Below, piece after piece: positions 2,428-31,344 of a stretch of 62,174 nt of DNA. The notes below the pieces were generated by a model. The model did no database searches, was not told where the DNA came from, and saw only the letters and a program-made list of their open reading frames with translations. The position numbers and the translations under genes are program-made. Positions within the stretch are counted from its first letter, which is position 1. Each line of letters begins with the position of its first letter. This stretch comes from Pirellulales bacterium (GTDB taxonomy: Bacteria > Planctomycetota > Planctomycetia > Pirellulales > PALSA-1355), in NCBI GenBank assembly GCA_022844125.1, contig JALHMI010000024.1:1-62174 (forward strand), in the 5' to 3' direction.

Positions 2428-3726
2428 GTGCGCTGTTCGCGACTCGATTTGCTCGCTGTTGTTTGCCTGACGATTCCCCTCGTCGGCTGTGTCAAACCTT
2501 CGACGCCCGGCGAAAAGGTCAAAGTGACCAAGATCTCGGCCGGACCCGACGTTCAGAAGCAGGTGCAAACCGCTCTGATCGAAGCCAAAGAGGGCGAAGT
2601 GATTGAGTTCGGCGAGGGGACGTTCGAGTTCGACTCGACGCTCTCCTGCGACGTCAGCGATCTGACGATTCGCGGCCAAGGCCAGGACAAGACGATTCTC
2701 TCGTTCGCCAAGCAAGGTCAGGGGACCGGTGGCGAAGGCCTGGCGATCACCAGCAAGAAGAACGTCACGATCGAGAACCTGGCCGTCGAAGACGCCAAGG
2801 GTGATGCGATCAAGGTCAATAAGACCGACGGGATCACGTTCCGCGGCGTGCGCACCAGTTGGACCGGCGGGCCGAAGACCGAGAACGGCGCATACGGCCT
2901 GTACCCCGTGCTGTGCCAGAACGTGCTGATCGAAGATTGCATCGCGACCGACGCTTCGGACGCGGGCATCTATGTTGGCCAGTCGCAGAACATCATCGTC
3001 CGCCGCTGTCGGGCCGAGCACAACGTGGCCGGGATCGAGATCGAGAATTCGATCAATGCCGACGTGTATGAGAACGTGGCCACGGGGAACACCGGCGGCA
3101 TCCTGGTCTTTTCGCTGCCCGATCTGGAGCTGAAGGTCGGCCGCAACTGCCGCGTCTACAACAACGAAATCGTGGAAAACAACCACGAGAACTTCGCCCC
3201 CAAGGGGAACGCCGTGGCCAACGTGCCGCCGGGAACGGGCGTGATGATTCTGGCCAGCCGCCAGGTTGAAGTGTTCGACAACAAGATCAAGAACAACGAC
3301 AGCGTCGGCATGTCGATCTGCAGCTACCTGGTCACCCAGAAACCGTTCGACAAGGACCCGGGTTACGATCCGTTCTGCGATTCGATTTACGTGCATAACA
3401 ACACGTTCGAAGGGAACGGCTCGAAGCCGGCCGGCCCGCTGAGCCAGTTGGTGACGATGGCGATTGGCGAGAAGTCGCTGCCGGACATTATTTATGACGG
3501 CGTGGTCGACCCGAAGAAGGGCGTCGACGGCGAGCTGCCCAAGGAGCTGGCGATCATCATCCGCGACAACGGCGACGCCGGATTCGTGGATTTCGATCTG
3601 CCGGGCCTGGACATGAGCAACCCGCTCGAGCCGAAGCCGGGCAAGATCAGCCGCGATCTGAAGCCGTTTGAAGGCAATGGCGAGATCCCGAAGATCGAAC
3701 CGGTGACGATTGCGGGCGTAAAGTAG
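2428..3726 (+). CDS. parallel beta-helix repeat lipoprotein (TIGR03805-like)
   Basis: A 432-residue lipoprotein. A GTG start follows AAGGAG by 7 bases. The signal peptide ends in the lipobox LVGC (Cys21). The body has stacked right-handed beta-helix turns (for example DLTIRGQGQDKTILSFA, NVTIENLAVEDAKGDAIKV, GIEIENSINADVYENVATGN). It matches the family defined as TIGR03805, whose members regularly sit beside a second exported family, TIGR03806; the next gene here is that partner. The function of the pair is not established. Beta-helix proteins of this shape often bind or cleave polysaccharides, but I see no catalytic set that would support a lyase call. Confidence 0.85.
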   Translation: MRCSRLDLLAVVCLTIPLVGCVKPSTPGEKVKVTKISAGPDVQKQVQTALIEAKEGEVIEFGEGTFEFDSTLSCDVSDLTIRGQGQDKTILSFAKQGQGTGGEGLAITSKKNVTIENLAVEDAKGDAIKVNKTDGITFRGVRTSWTGGPKTENGAYGLYPVLCQNVLIEDCIATDASDAGIYVGQSQNIIVRRCRAEHNVAGIEIENSINADVYENVATGNTGGILVFSLPDLELKVGRNCRVYNNEIVENNHENFAPKGNAVANVPPGTGVMILASRQVEVFDNKIKNNDSVGMSICSYLVTQKPFDKDPGYDPFCDSIYVHNNTFEGNGSKPAGPLSQLVTMAIGEKSLPDIIYDGVVDPKKGVDGELPKELAIIIRDNGDAGFVDFDLPGLDMSNPLEPKPGKISRDLKPFEGNGEIPKIEPVTIAGVK

Positions 3727-3775
3727 TGGCCCGATGGGGCAGGGGTGAGCTGAGTACAGCCACCCGTGGCACCCT

Positions 3776-3815
3776 ACGCCGTTAACCCCAGGGTCCAGCG
3801 AAAACAGGGTGGCAC
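3776..3815. repeat. dispersed intergenic repeat, copy A
   Basis: This 40-base stretch, from ACGCCGTTAACCCCAGGGTC to GGGTGGCACT, aligns with 8607-8650 downstream of the heme c/copper protein gene. Most positions match and the copy there has a 4-base insertion. Just upstream, 3758-3772, lies a further CCACCCGTGGCAC motif of the kind found in the 37-bp elements elsewhere in this window. Confidence 0.6.
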
Positions 3816-3933
3816 TGGTGGCACCCAGTGCTTCGCCGGGGTCTAAAACTACAGAGTGTTCCGAGTGTAAAATAGCCAGTGGTGGCTGGCCCGCTGTTTG
3901 CGGTTAAACCACCTCTTGGCATCGAGAAGTATC

Positions 3934-3975
3934 GCACTGGCGCTCGCGACCACACACGGTCGAGAGCGCCAGTGC
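3934..3975. repeat. strong intergenic hairpin
   Basis: The arms GCACTGGCGCTCGCGACC (3934-3951) and 3958-3975 are complementary over 18 bases with one mismatch, and enclose the loop ACACAC. It sits 30 bases before the diheme cytochrome gene. There is no T-run on the plus strand, so it is not a classical terminator of the lipoprotein gene. It may be a repeat-element palindrome or a stabilising mRNA structure. Confidence 0.6.
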
Positions 3976-4005
3976 TTCGTTTAACCACGCCTCGCGAGTG
4001 TGTCT

Positions 4006-5106
4006 ATGTGGGCCGGCGATCGACTTTTTGCGTGTGCGGCGCTGTTAGTAATGTGTCTGTTTGCGGCGAGCGGATGTAGCACATCCGAGCCGGTGAGCAC
4101 AGCGCCCGAGCATCCCGAGAAGCTCTCGGAGTTTGGCCTGTTCACCGGGAACGGCAGCACGCAGGACGCGGCCGAGGGGGTCGTGCCGTACGACCTCAAC
4201 TCGCCGCTATTCACGGATTACACCGATAAGTTTCGTTTCGTGAAGTTGCCGGCGGGCACAACCGCCGAGTACCGTGCAGACGACGTGTTTGAGTTTCCTG
4301 TCGGAACGATCATCGCCAAGACATTCGCCTACCCGGTCGATGCGCGCGACCCTGCCAAGGGGCGGCGCCTGCTCGAGACACGAATTCTCAAGCATGAGCC
4401 GGACGGCTGGGTCGGCATTCCCTACATCTGGAACGACGAGCAGACGGACGCGGTTCGTGACGTGGCGGGCGACGTCCTGCCGGTAAGCTGGATCGACGAG
4501 CACGGCGCCGAGCGGAAGAACGACTACATCATTCCCAACGCCAACCAGTGCAAGGGTTGCCATAAACAAGGGGACGACATGCAGCCGCTCGGCCCCAAGG
4601 CCCGGCATTTGAACAAGGACTACACCTATCACGATGGGCCAGATTCCACAGTAACCGAGAATCAGCTCGCGCATTGGAAGCGGGTGGGCGCGCTGAAGGA
4701 TTCGCCCGAGCCGGCCGAAGCGCCGCGGCTGGCCGTGTGGAACGACCCCCACACCGGCACGCTCGACGAGCGGGCCCGGGCGTGGCTGGAAATCAATTGC
4801 GCGCACTGCCACAACCCGATCGGTCCGGCGCGGAACTCGGGCTTGAATCTGCTGGCCTCGCAAGTCAACCCGCGCGAGTTCGGGATCTACAAAACGCCGG
4901 TTGCGGCAGGGCGCGGTTCGGGCGGGCATGAGTTCGACATCGTGCCGGGACATCCCGAGGAGTCGATTTTCATCTTCCGGTTGTTATCGACGGATGCCGG
5001 GATCATGATGCCGGAGCTGGGCAAGCGGTTGGTACACACCGAAGGCGTGGAACTCATTCGCGAATGGATCGCGGCGATGCCGGAAGAGACGCGGCCGACG
5101 CGGTAA
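4006..5106 (+). CDS. diheme c-type cytochrome lipoprotein (SO2930/TIGR03806-like)
   Basis: A 366-residue exported protein. Counting from ATG 4006, the signal peptide MWAGDRLFACAALLVMCLFA leads to a lipobox AASGC. A GTG two codons earlier (4000) is an alternative start. There are two heme-binding CxxCH motifs, CKGCH near residue 184 and CAHCH near residue 267. The text around them (SPLFTDYTDKFRFVKLP, FPVGTIIAKTFAYP, GIPYIWNDEQTDA) is typical of the SO2930/HNE_0200 family (TIGR03806). It follows the beta-helix lipoprotein with which this family is habitually paired, so the two probably work together at the outer membrane or periplasm. The role of the pair is unknown. Confidence 0.85.
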   Translation: MWAGDRLFACAALLVMCLFAASGCSTSEPVSTAPEHPEKLSEFGLFTGNGSTQDAAEGVVPYDLNSPLFTDYTDKFRFVKLPAGTTAEYRADDVFEFPVGTIIAKTFAYPVDARDPAKGRRLLETRILKHEPDGWVGIPYIWNDEQTDAVRDVAGDVLPVSWIDEHGAERKNDYIIPNANQCKGCHKQGDDMQPLGPKARHLNKDYTYHDGPDSTVTENQLAHWKRVGALKDSPEPAEAPRLAVWNDPHTGTLDERARAWLEINCAHCHNPIGPARNSGLNLLASQVNPREFGIYKTPVAAGRGSGGHEFDIVPGHPEESIFIFRLLSTDAGIMMPELGKRLVHTEGVELIREWIAAMPEETRPTR

Positions 5107-24350: not shown

Positions 24351-24863
24351 TCACACTTCAACCGGCGCCGGCGAGCATGACTTTGCAAAACCAAGCCCGC
24401 GCTTCAGCGTGGGAAACACGCGGTGCATGGCCACGGCCAAGGCGATTTCGACCAGTCCCTCGTCGCCGTAGTGCTGGCGTACCCGCTCGCGATAGTCGTC
24501 CAGCTCGGGTGAGTTGAGCGTCGCCGCCTCGGCAAAGTGGTAGACGTCCGCCAGTTCCTCGGGCAGCGACTCGGGAGTGCGCCGGACGACGGCCTCGAGA
24601 ATTTCGCGCGAAACGCCCACTTTGCGCGCGAGGTTCACGCCAATCTGCACGCACGAGCCGCAGTCATCTGCCATCGAGCCGACCAGCGACGCAACATGCA
24701 CGGCCGTTTTCGGGCCCCGGTGTGCATTGAGCAGCTTCGTGAACTTCGCCATCCGAATCGTGGCGGGAAGAGAAACCTTGGCGATCCAGCGGGCATAGTC
24801 GAGCGGGACGCCGAGATCGCGCTCGGCCTTGGTGATCTGTCGATCGATAAACCAGTTAAGCAT
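24351..24863 (-). CDS. carboxymuconolactone decarboxylase (AhpD-like) family protein
   Basis: 170 residues. The CMD/AhpD core is recognised by HVASLVGSMADDCGSCVQIG, with CxxC (CGSC). The His that follows the second Cys in AhpD (CxxCxxxH) is replaced by Gly here, so peroxidase-type relay as in AhpD is doubtful. The gene overlaps the end of the sigma factor gene by 8 bases and ends the operon. CMD-family genes are the usual targets and neighbours of ECF41 sigma factors, which fits. The substrate is unknown; a redox or stress role is likely. Confidence 0.85.
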   Translation of the reverse strand: MLNWFIDRQITKAERDLGVPLDYARWIAKVSLPATIRMAKFTKLLNAHRGPKTAVHVASLVGSMADDCGSCVQIGVNLARKVGVSREILEAVVRRTPESLPEELADVYHFAEAATLNSPELDDYRERVRQHYGDEGLVEIALAVAMHRVFPTLKRGLGFAKSCSPAPVEV

Positions 24864-25767
24864 CGCTCCACACTCCTTTCACACCGTGGGCCGCTGCGAC
24901 GGCAGCCAGCTTGCGAGGGTTGAGAATTGAAAACAGGCGGCGAATCTGCTCGCCATCGACTTCGAACGAGACCAGGGCATGCAGGCGGCCATCGGCAAGC
25001 TGCATCATCGCCGGCAAGCCGTTGACCTCGCACGGTCGCAGCTCGACGTTGAGTCCCATCCGCTCCGCTTTACCGCGCAGGCCCAGCAAGAATCGCGTCA
25101 CCCGGTCGAGACCTTCGATCGGAGCACGGGCTGCCGCGGTGAGACCACCGCCATCGCTGTAGGCCGTGACATCGCCGGCCAACACGGCTTGCAGCTGGTC
25201 GAGGTCACCGGTCTCCACGGCCTGCATGAATCGCTGGACGAGTTGGCGATGCTTCTCGGGCGACGCGGGAAAGCGGGGGCGGCTCTCGGCCACGCGCTCT
25301 CGGGCGCGGTGCGCCAATTGACGGCAGGCCTCGGGCGTCTTCTCGACGAACGCGGACACCTCGTCATACGGATACTGAAACACGTCATGCAGCAGGAATA
25401 CCGCCCGCTCAATCGGCGTGAGCGATTCCAGCATCACGAGAAACGCCAGCGACACCGACTCGGAGAGTTCCGCATGTTGAGCCGGGTCGTTCTCGCGCTC
25501 GGCTAGCGGTTCGGGCAGCCAGGGGCCGACATACTCCTCGCGTCGGCGGCGGGCAGACTTCCATTCGTCCAGGCAGCGCCTGACGACGGCTTGCGTCAGG
25601 TAGGGGCGTGGGGAGGTCACCTCGCCGATGCGCTGTGTCCGCAGCTTGACGAACACGTCCTGCAGCGCGTCCTCGGCATCGCTCACCGTACCCATCAGGC
25701 GGTAGGCGATTTGAAACAGCCGCGGACGCTGTTCGAGAAACGCTTGCTCGAGAGCCTGTTCAGGCAT
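24856..25767 (-). CDS. ECF41-group RNA polymerase sigma factor with fused SnoaL-like domain
   Basis: 303 residues. The first 170 are sigma region 2 (LFQIAYRLMGTVSDAEDALQ) and region 4 (SLTPIERAVFLLHDVFQYPY). The C-terminal 130 residues form a SnoaL-like domain. Three hallmarks of group ECF41 are present: WLPEP in the linker (PWLPEPLAE), DGGG (YSDGGGLTAAA) and the terminal NPRKL (variant of NPDKL). In this group the fused domain regulates activity instead of an anti-sigma factor. The gene overlaps its neighbours on both sides by 8 bases. A matching ECF41-type promoter lies before the operon, suggesting self-activation. Confidence 0.93.
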   Translation of the reverse strand: MPEQALEQAFLEQRPRLFQIAYRLMGTVSDAEDALQDVFVKLRTQRIGEVTSPRPYLTQAVVRRCLDEWKSARRRREEYVGPWLPEPLAERENDPAQHAELSESVSLAFLVMLESLTPIERAVFLLHDVFQYPYDEVSAFVEKTPEACRQLAHRARERVAESRPRFPASPEKHRQLVQRFMQAVETGDLDQLQAVLAGDVTAYSDGGGLTAAARAPIEGLDRVTRFLLGLRGKAERMGLNVELRPCEVNGLPAMMQLADGRLHALVSFEVDGEQIRRLFSILNPRKLAAVAAAHGVKGVWSDA

Positions 25768-26188
25768 GGGCCGGGGCTCCCACTTTTGAGAGTACCCGTG
25801 CCAGCAGCGCGGCGGCGAGGGCCACGAGCGGCTCGATGACGAGCAGCGCTTGGGCCGTCATCTGGAACATCGGGGCATCTGCGCCTTGTTGAGCGGAGAC
25901 ATGGTCCGGATTCATTGGCCCGAAGTGAAAGTACATGCCGAACAGCCAGCTTGCGATGAGCAGCGCGGCGAGACTCCAGGCCACCGCGGCGTTGGGTCGA
26001 ATCCACAGCCAGACAAGGGCCGCGGTGGGACCGATCACGATCACGAGCCAGACGTACGCCGTTTGCCAGGCGGCCAGTGGCACCGCCAGGGTGTCGTGCG
26101 CGTGGCCGTGAGCCATGTTGACGGTCATCCGAATGACGTACAATCCGGTGACGATAGCAAGCCAGAGGATCGGGCGCGGCGCAGACAT
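25760..26188 (-). CDS. small membrane protein heading the ECF41 operon
   Basis: 142 residues with four hydrophobic segments (ILWLAIVTGLYVIRMTVNMA, AYVWLVIVIGPTAALVWLWI, WSLAALLIASWLFGMYFHFG, FQMTAQALLVIEPLVALAAA). It contains a His-rich MAHGHAHD after helix 1 and HFGPMNPDHV after helix 3. I do not recognise the family. It is the first gene after the ECF41 promoter and overlaps the sigma gene by 8 bases, so it is translated with it. It could sense or modify the signal. The overlap pattern favours a shared pathway with the CMD-like protein. Confidence 0.75.
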   Translation of the reverse strand: MSAPRPILWLAIVTGLYVIRMTVNMAHGHAHDTLAVPLAAWQTAYVWLVIVIGPTAALVWLWIRPNAAVAWSLAALLIASWLFGMYFHFGPMNPDHVSAQQGADAPMFQMTAQALLVIEPLVALAAALLARVLSKVGAPAHA

Positions 26189-26259
26189 GGCAACTCTCCA
26201 GCGATGGCGAAATCGGTTCCTGACTTCCTGACACCGTGTTCTGCTCGTTCGTCAATGTA

Positions 26260-26286
26260 GACGAGCGACCCCCTTTTCGTGTGACA
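26260..26286 (-). promoter_or_regulatory. ECF41-type promoter of the sigma factor operon
   Basis: Read on the minus strand, TGTCACA (26286-26280) and CGTC (26263-26260) are separated by exactly 16 bases. TGTCACA plus CGTC is the reported recognition motif of ECF41 sigma factors. The predicted transcript would start near 26253, giving a leader of about 65 bases before ATG 26188. Confidence 0.8.
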
Positions 26287-26293
26287 CACGAAG

Positions 26294-26310
26294 ACGGTTC
26301 CTGGAACCGT
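26294..26310. promoter_or_regulatory. 17-bp palindrome in the divergent spacer
   Basis: ACGGTTCC-T-GGAACCGT is perfectly symmetric and lies 8 bases beyond the -35 of the ECF41 promoter, between two divergent units. Position and symmetry suit an operator. It is followed by four extra T on the plus strand, so a weak terminator reading is possible, but no plus-strand gene ends here. Confidence 0.4.
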
Positions 26311-26337
26311 TTTTCGCGTGGTGGACCGAAGTGGTTG

Positions 26338-26775
26338 ATGGTTATGGAGTTAGTGGAGGCGGAATTTGAAGTGCCGGGATGGCTGATTGCCAAGGGCCGG
26401 TTCGTGTTGGACGTCGGCGGAGAGGGACGACATCCGGTGGCATGGAACCTAAACCAGCGGCGAGAGCGGTCGGGGGCCGGCCGCGCGACTGGGCCAATCC
26501 CGCGATTGATCCTCGCCCGCGCCGATGCGATACCCCTGGCCGCTGATTCTGTCGATCTGGCGATTGTGGAACGCACGCCACTGTGCGCGAATGCGCTTCG
26601 CGAATTACTCCGGGTGACCAAGCCCGCAGGAGTGATTCTTTTGCGGCACGCCATCACGCCGGCCGGCGACCCACATCGCTTGGCGCTTAAGCGTCTTGGC
26701 GGAACGGTCGGGCGCCGGCAGTTCGCGCATCGCGGCTACCAGATCCAGGAAACAATCTTCCAGGTTGGAGGTTGA
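26338..26775 (+). CDS. small SAM-methyltransferase-like protein
   Basis: 145 residues from ATG 26338. Start choice is uncertain: ATG 26344 and an upstream GTG 26236 share the frame, and none has a strong ribosome-binding site. The text FVLDVGGEGRHP resembles motif I of class I methyltransferases. ADAIPLAADSVDLAIVER matches the usual acidic/PF loop, and ELLRVTKPAGVILLRH fits the later strand. It is shorter than typical enzymes and lacks an obvious catalytic motif, so it may bind SAM or be degenerate. It converges on the hybrid kinase gene. Confidence 0.6.
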   Translation: MVMELVEAEFEVPGWLIAKGRFVLDVGGEGRHPVAWNLNQRRERSGAGRATGPIPRLILARADAIPLAADSVDLAIVERTPLCANALRELLRVTKPAGVILLRHAITPAGDPHRLALKRLGGTVGRRQFAHRGYQIQETIFQVGG

Positions 26776-26787
26776 GTGGCGAATATG

Positions 26788-30942
<4,155 letters not shown>

Positions 30943-31344
30943 GTCGGTCATCCTTTCCCCGCCTTCGCGCAGTATTCGCCTTGCCGGCGAGACACGGCGT
31001 GCGGCACCACTCGCGCGCACCGGTTGCGGCAACAGACGCCCTTCGCTTGGGGCGGATGGTCCGCAACTAAACTCGGCACAAGGCGCGATGGACGCGGCAC
31101 GGCGTTCGGTTCACGCAAGGCGGACTTGACTCTTCTTGGGTCGCGTTAAATGCAACAGGCGCGCCAATACCGACCCGCCAACCGGTCAGTCGGTGGTGCG
31201 GAATCTTCGCAAGTCCCTGAATCGCAATGAGTAACGGGTTGCGAGTCCGAGCGGTGAATTGCCGTTCGGTGTGGTCCGGCTGGATTTTGGATAGCCCGAG
31301 TGGACAAGAGAAAACCAGCCGCAGGGCCAGGGCTTTGCGTCTGG

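Follow-up and report, generated by a model that had tools for sequence, protein, structure and literature searches.

The window, by which we mean the whole 62,174-nucleotide stretch of DNA that was analysed, carries an operon of three minus-strand genes encoding a membrane protein, a sigma factor and a CMD-like protein, with an 8-nt overlap at each junction (Table 1). A divergent methyltransferase-like gene (26341-26775, plus) separates this operon from a further minus-strand gene (26788-31032), whose 1414-aa product looks, on reading of the ORF, like a CheB-CheR-PAS-histidine kinase-receiver fusion.

Table 1. Features of the operon and its predicted promoter region in the window.
Feature	Position	Strand	Description
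ECF41 promoter (predicted)	26260..26286	minus	TGTCACA 26286-26280 (-35), 16-nt spacer, CGTC 26263-26260 (-10)
Predicted 5′ leader	26189..26259	minus	71 nt from -10 element to ATG (26188); GGAGAG ahead of start codon
Membrane protein	25760..26188	minus	142 aa; four predicted membrane helices; first gene of operon
ECF41-type (SigJ-like) sigma factor	24856..25767	minus	303 aa; WLPEP, DGGG, NPRKL; SnoaL-like C-terminal extension
AhpD-like CMD-family protein	24351..24863	minus	170 aa; DDCGSC; 8-nt overlap with sigma gene

An earlier sequence-only reading had assigned the sigma factor to ECF41, and the profile searches bear this out. The protein scores 352.1 bits against TIGR02957 (cut-off 323.25, residues 9-290), a SigX4/SigJ model that we take to stand for ECF41, whilst the next-best match in the genome reaches 70 bits. 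Regions 2 and 4 are both recognised above cut-off (PF04542, 41.5 bits; PF08281, 43.5 bits). The C-terminal extension of approximately 140 aa lies within the TIGR02957 match and scores 24.9 bits against SnoaL_2, slightly under that model's own cut-off of 27. The best solved chain is SigJ 5xe7, presumably from Mycobacterium tuberculosis, which covers around three quarters of the window sigma factor (E 1.4e-41, residues 10-233). The WLPEP, DGGG and NPDKL-type motifs are present as claimed, the last as NPRKL. Aligning five members shows no variation in DGGG and NPxKL, whilst WLPEP is found in four, L016 having WVPEP. DGGG and NPDKL were taken as family motifs from the sequence-only reading; PMC3426412 names WLPEP plus three further motifs, whose letters are not given in its text. 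Searches of the operon proteins against Pfam and NCBIfam returned no known anti-sigma family.

At E up to 1e-60, 25 of the 392 genomes sampled from the phylum have an ECF41-type gene, as do 9 of the 57 close relatives at E up to 1e-30, the host genome being included in both counts. Nine of the 25, again with the host, reach the TIGR02957 cut-off; the remainder have full-length matches of 214-317 bits and were counted as ECF41-type. Outside these samples, a scan of genome contigs with the sigma factor gave one Streptomyces locus, and 464 plasmid records carry a similar sigma factor, the neighbourhood being viewed for one of them (Gloeocapsa). In the sigma tree the window sequence sits on a long branch without a resolved place. 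Its nearest row is Chroococcidiopsis, and the test does not decide for or against a clade of the two (p-AU 0.30). For L026, L033 and L045 the partner labels in this tree were assigned by eye or assumed, and were used for no conclusion.

The exact motif described in the sequence-only reading, TGTCACA-N16-CGTC on the minus strand some 70 bases before the first gene, was confirmed at 26286-26260, with 71 nt to the ATG at 26188, and it agrees with the ECF41 family consensus as printed in PMC3426412. The transcribed leader is predicted at approximately 62-66 nt, compared with the 22/23 nt mapped in the promoters described in that paper. By window count alone the motif is unremarkable: one exact copy occurs (spacer 14-18) against a shuffle mean of 0.23, with at least one copy in 20 of 100 shuffles, and allowing up to two mismatches gives 16 matches in the window where 19.4 are expected, which is no excess. 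In the host genome (6,443,003 bases, spacer 15-17) the exact motif occurs only once, compared with three matches to the reversed pattern, and this sole copy stands before the sole gene above the SigX4 cut-off.

In 47 genomes from the phylum, counts of the exact motif with spacer 16 range from 0 to 10, and 41 of these genomes have at least one copy. Genomes with an ECF41-type gene hold 79 sites in 27 genomes (2.9 each) and those without hold 55 in 20 (2.75 each; backward pattern 32), so that there is no genome-wide excess among ECF41 genomes in this set. Therefore, it is the position of the motif and not its presence that carries weight. From the latter frequency, the probability that a site falls by chance on the correct strand and no more than 100 bp away is approximately 2e-5 (2.75 x 100 / 12.9 million). 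In G161, a genome with no ECF41-type match, the exact motif occurs ten times; seven copies share one identical 27-mer and hence evidently belong to a dispersed repeat.

The regions upstream of other ECF41-type genes were searched for the same motif, initially with spacers of 15-17. The count covers 30 further loci for which 1.5 kb upstream was available; dropped from it were L032 and L042 (the same genes as L016 and L019), L026, whose contig begins 445 bp ahead of the match, and the window itself. With a spacer of 16 the motif is exact in 20/30 and present with at most one mismatch in 28/30, although these counts are not independent since the loci are related. On the opposite strand of the same regions it was found in 1/30, and spacers of 13, 14, 15, 17, 18 and 19 gave 1, 0, 0, 0, 0 and 0 exact matches in the 30 loci. 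Moreover, 200 letter-shuffled motifs reached a maximum of 2 loci (exact) or 4 (one mismatch). The two loci without a motif are L033 and L045. By BLAST grouping, the first genes of the 28 motif loci comprise 6 of flavin amine oxidase type, 6 cupins, 10 CMDs of the EDCGxC type and 6 other CMDs. Pfam searches of one or two members per group returned amine oxidase, cupin and CMD, whilst the single EDCGxC CMD scanned gave no match. Given this conservation of the motif before ECF41-type genes, positive autoregulation from TGTCACA-N16-CGTC, as proposed in the sequence-only reading, is the best reading of the arrangement in the window.

Several ECF41-type loci show further features. On the Gloeocapsa plasmid an oxidoreductase-sigma pair has two exact motifs upstream. 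L018 has a second exact TGTCACA-N16-CGTC (1372, minus) downstream of the sigma gene and ahead of genes that by eye look like a CMD and an epimerase, and L038 has a second copy (2977, plus) upstream and facing the opposite way. In four ECF41-type loci (L022-L025, from G326, G160, G176 and G119) the operon-heading CMD contains an in-frame TGA, which aligns with the second Cys of the CxxC in L028 (IGCPF-TGA-VDI compared with IGCPFCVDF). As the TGA replaces this cysteine, these CMDs are probably selenoproteins. SelA scores above cut-off in all four of the genomes concerned, and also in 3 of 6 others tested.

We considered whether the operon could be read mainly from another promoter, the ECF41 motif being a chance match or a relic. 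Such an explanation draws on the frequency of the exact motif, which at 0-10 copies per genome is as common without ECF41 as with it, and on the REP-like repeats that crowd the promoter region, flanking the motif at 26288-26316 and, inside the predicted leader, at approximately 26208-26241. However, the placement of the motif is improbable by chance, and both the motif and its fixed spacing are conserved before ECF41-type genes. A scan of 25700-26800 found no sigma-70-like site, which says little, as 0.1 is expected by chance and other promoter types lie outside the scan. We regard this explanation as very improbable.

Two perfect 17-bp palindromes lie at the -35 element, the first (26276-26292) covering it and the second (26294-26310) separated from the first by a single base; their centres are 18 bp apart. 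A second regulator could use them as operators to gate the ECF41 promoter. Nine such palindromes occur in the window, compared with 1-7 in 20 Markov-shuffled windows, and two centres within 25 bp of one another were seen in 0/20 shuffles. However, the second palindrome is explained as a dispersed REP-like repeat, found at 25 places in the genome (at most two mismatches) compared with 4 for the reversed pattern; of three copies viewed, two were paired and one single. The first palindrome, TTCGTGTGACACACGAA, has no other genome match with fewer than two mismatches, and no perfect palindrome with 8-bp arms is found at this place in the other motif loci, where the longest arm is 6. Control by a second regulator is thus the least probable of the readings considered here.

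The third gene supplies the CMD-type partner that the sequence-only reading had claimed. Although the protein falls below the Pfam CMD cut-off (PF02627; 18.5 compared with 23 bits), a CMD from G023, a genome of the same order, is 54% identical to it and scores 23.7. The window CMD also aligns with ten EDCGxC-type CMDs from other ECF41 operons at 29-38% identity (best E 2e-27), and the CxxC is kept as DDCGSC. These similarities support its assignment as a CMD-type partner with a CxxC.

The first gene encodes a protein for which Pfam and NCBIfam gave no family above cut-off. We identified eleven homologues, five in plasmid records and six in genomes of the host order. A tblastn search of plasmids (E up to 1) recovered the five records, all cyanobacterial (best E 8e-4); three Nostoc strains account for four of them and Chroococcidiopsis, whose protein matches those of Nostoc at approximately 55% over nearly the full length, for the fifth. 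Within the order the protein is found in 7 of 396 sampled genomes (E up to 1e-5), the host included. A single-sequence search of the 392 phylum genomes returned only the host and G199, and because the denser order sample gave six homologues, absence from the phylum sample is partly a sampling effect. Three sets of candidates were rejected. The G199 match is weak (E 3e-4, 57 aa), and by eye L021 has no ORF of at least 90 aa that resembles the operon. The A1 profile gave 37 other genomes of the phylum sample at E up to 1 (best 0.0015), which we treated as noise, and a Pseudomonas plasmid match (E 0.7, 55 aa) was dropped. Viral contigs contained no relative of the protein.

An alignment of ten of the twelve sequences, omitting two near-copies of L047, shows T14, H27, H31, P54, W62, L73, F83, G84, H88, D95, F108, T111 and A112 to be invariant, and both omitted copies retain H27, H31, H88 and D95. 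Hydropathy gives four segments (7-25, 45-63, 67-85 and 115-133). The loops that follow segments 1 and 3 contain H27, H31, H88 and D95, which places all four on one predicted side of the membrane; on our reading of the positive-inside rule this would be the outer one. It is a guess that they form a site for a metal, haem or quinone. An AlphaFold model of the lone protein has four long helices and one short (mean pLDDT 62.7, pTM 0.38). Foldseek with this weak model found no fold match (best E 1.9), and among solved structures the best A1 match had an E of 0.14.

The sequence-only reading had also placed the membrane protein outside the usual partners of ECF41, which is only partly upheld. In BLAST searches it has no match at E up to 0.1 among the first genes of the 28 other motif loci; however, plasmid pB of Chroococcidiopsis (L050) carries a homologue within an ECF41 operon. 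There, an exact TGTCACA-N16-CGTC lies at 3271 ahead of a CMD gene (3335-3826), after which come the membrane-protein gene (3938-4348) and sigJ; the sigJ ATG and the stop codon of the membrane-protein gene share ATGA (4 nt), and an IS701 element splits sigJ. A separate ECF41-type operon, in L046 (2343-3559), consists of a cupin and a sigma factor followed by a MauE-like membrane protein (25.3 bits, under the 27-bit cut-off) and then by an epimerase-type protein, and small membrane proteins may therefore recur in ECF41-type operons. The MauE-like protein of L046 and the membrane protein of the window align in hhalign over 19 columns with a probability of 0.6%, which lends no support to a DoxX/MauE relationship, although the comparison is a weak one against one sequence, itself under the MauE cut-off.

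The twelve loci with the membrane protein differ in their neighbours. An ECF41 gene adjoins it in two, the window and Chroococcidiopsis, and a CMD in three, the same two and G023. An epimerase-type gene lies directly upstream in 4/12 (three Nostoc plasmids and G455), as called by Pfam in L047 and L094 and from annotation as NAD(P)-dependent oxidoreductase in the other two. An FGGY sugar kinase is upstream in 3/12 (G001-G003; by Pfam in L091 and by eye in the other two), a catalase-like gene is downstream in one (L049) and one has no evident partner (G037). In G023 the membrane protein is 45% identical to that of the window and its CMD begins 31 nt downstream with no sigma gene between, showing that the membrane protein and CMD exist as a pair without the sigma factor.

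The six order relatives that have the membrane protein contain no full-length ECF41 match, the best TIGR02957 scores being 61-75 bits over approximately 160 residues, although absence is less sure in G002 and G455, whose genomes are 86 and 80% complete. None of the six carries the motif, at up to two mismatches, in the region preceding the gene (turned loci, positions 900-1520). Among the four Nostoc stretches, of 8.3 kb, there is no exact motif; one-mismatch matches occur, among them one in L049 lying 404 nt before the membrane-protein gene. The annotation of plasmid pn2 shows no sigma gene up to 18 kb from the membrane protein; two further Nostoc plasmids were inspected for 4 kb on each side, and L049 is a record without annotation.

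These distributions bear on the proposal that the membrane protein is a sensor or anti-sigma factor, which would bind the sigma factor at the membrane and free it on a signal. In both ECF41 operons its gene lies directly upstream of the sigma gene and overlaps it (8 nt in the window, 4 nt in Chroococcidiopsis), and four helices with a conserved polar site would suit such a role. However, all six order relatives keep the protein with no full-length ECF41 match, it pairs with a CMD or an epimerase where no sigma gene adjoins, the first gene differs in 28/28 of the other ECF41-type motif loci, and hydropathy leaves no room for a long cytoplasmic domain. The role as sensor put forward in the sequence-only reading is thus weakened, and we consider it unlikely, whilst noting that two ECF41 operons with the membrane protein are a small sample in which to judge a regulatory role. 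Since the protein occurs in six order relatives without ECF41, and recurs beside a CMD or an epimerase with no adjoining sigma gene, it looks instead like a partner of the enzymes that ECF41 controls.

Tentatively, and with well under even odds, the membrane protein may found a previously undescribed family of small proteins, with four helices and a His-His-His-Asp site on the outer face of the membrane, and act as a membrane redox partner (quinone, haem or metal) of CMD or epimerase enzymes. If so, some ECF41 systems would serve a membrane-bound redox reaction, and, by comparison of the window with G023, the sigma gene would have moved in or out between the membrane protein and the CMD.

Taken together, we favour an ECF41 operon under its own feedback, with the membrane protein as an effector beside a redox enzyme, and give this reading a probability of roughly three in four. 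By analogy with other ECF41 proteins, the SnoaL-like extension would hold the sigma factor back until some cue alters its shape. The sigma factor would then direct RNA polymerase to TGTCACA-N16-CGTC, giving one message for the membrane protein, the sigma factor and the AhpD-like CMD, and the 8-nt overlaps would couple translation of the three genes. The membrane protein would act with the redox enzyme, a CMD here and an epimerase elsewhere, probably at the membrane and by way of its His/His/His/Asp site. Given that the genome holds no other exact promoter, this is probably a one-operon switch.

Much of this is known in kind. According to PMC3426412, the only target of the ECF41 factor in each of two bacteria is its own COE operon, transcribed from TGTCACA-N16-CGTC. 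Trimming the end of the C-terminal extension gave a very active factor and its full removal abolished activity; the COE protein tested left sigma activity unaltered, and no ECF41 phenotype was found in either bacterium. The extension is treated as a regulatory domain in two reviews (PMC8999054, PMC8103513), and RpoE9 of S. meliloti is described as having a single CMD target (PMC6180224). Control of one operon is not universal, since the works cited in PMC8999054 include one on an Azospirillum ECF41 factor with control over motility and lateral flagella. Both the promoter and its autoregulation are already known in kind, and the new element is the membrane protein; the literature searched, the large ECF re-classification excepted, contained no description of it as an ECF41 partner. 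A membrane protein that recurs with ECF41-controlled enzymes in two phyla, whether or not the sigma factor is present, offers a concrete handle on what these enzymes do.

The closest parallels in PMC3426412 are RSP_0606-ecf41Rsp of Rhodobacter sphaeroides and ydfG with ecf41Bli of Bacillus licheniformis, operons whose sigma factors share the WLPEP linker and the regulatory C-terminal extension. These operons have the same TGTCACA-n16-CGTC, a CxxC CMD as single target and no adjoining anti-sigma gene; unlike them, the window has a membrane-protein gene first, the CMD last and a longer predicted leader. Plasmid pB of Chroococcidiopsis sp. CCNUC1 carries the same exact promoter, a CMD, a homologue of the membrane protein and SigJ side by side, and differs from the window in that its CMD is of another subtype and placed first, its sigJ is interrupted and the host belongs to another phylum. 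Table 3 of PMC3426412 lists no Planctomycetes, and the promoter data presented here add Planctomycetota, a phylum absent from that 2012 survey as tabulated, to those in which the ECF41 promoter is found.
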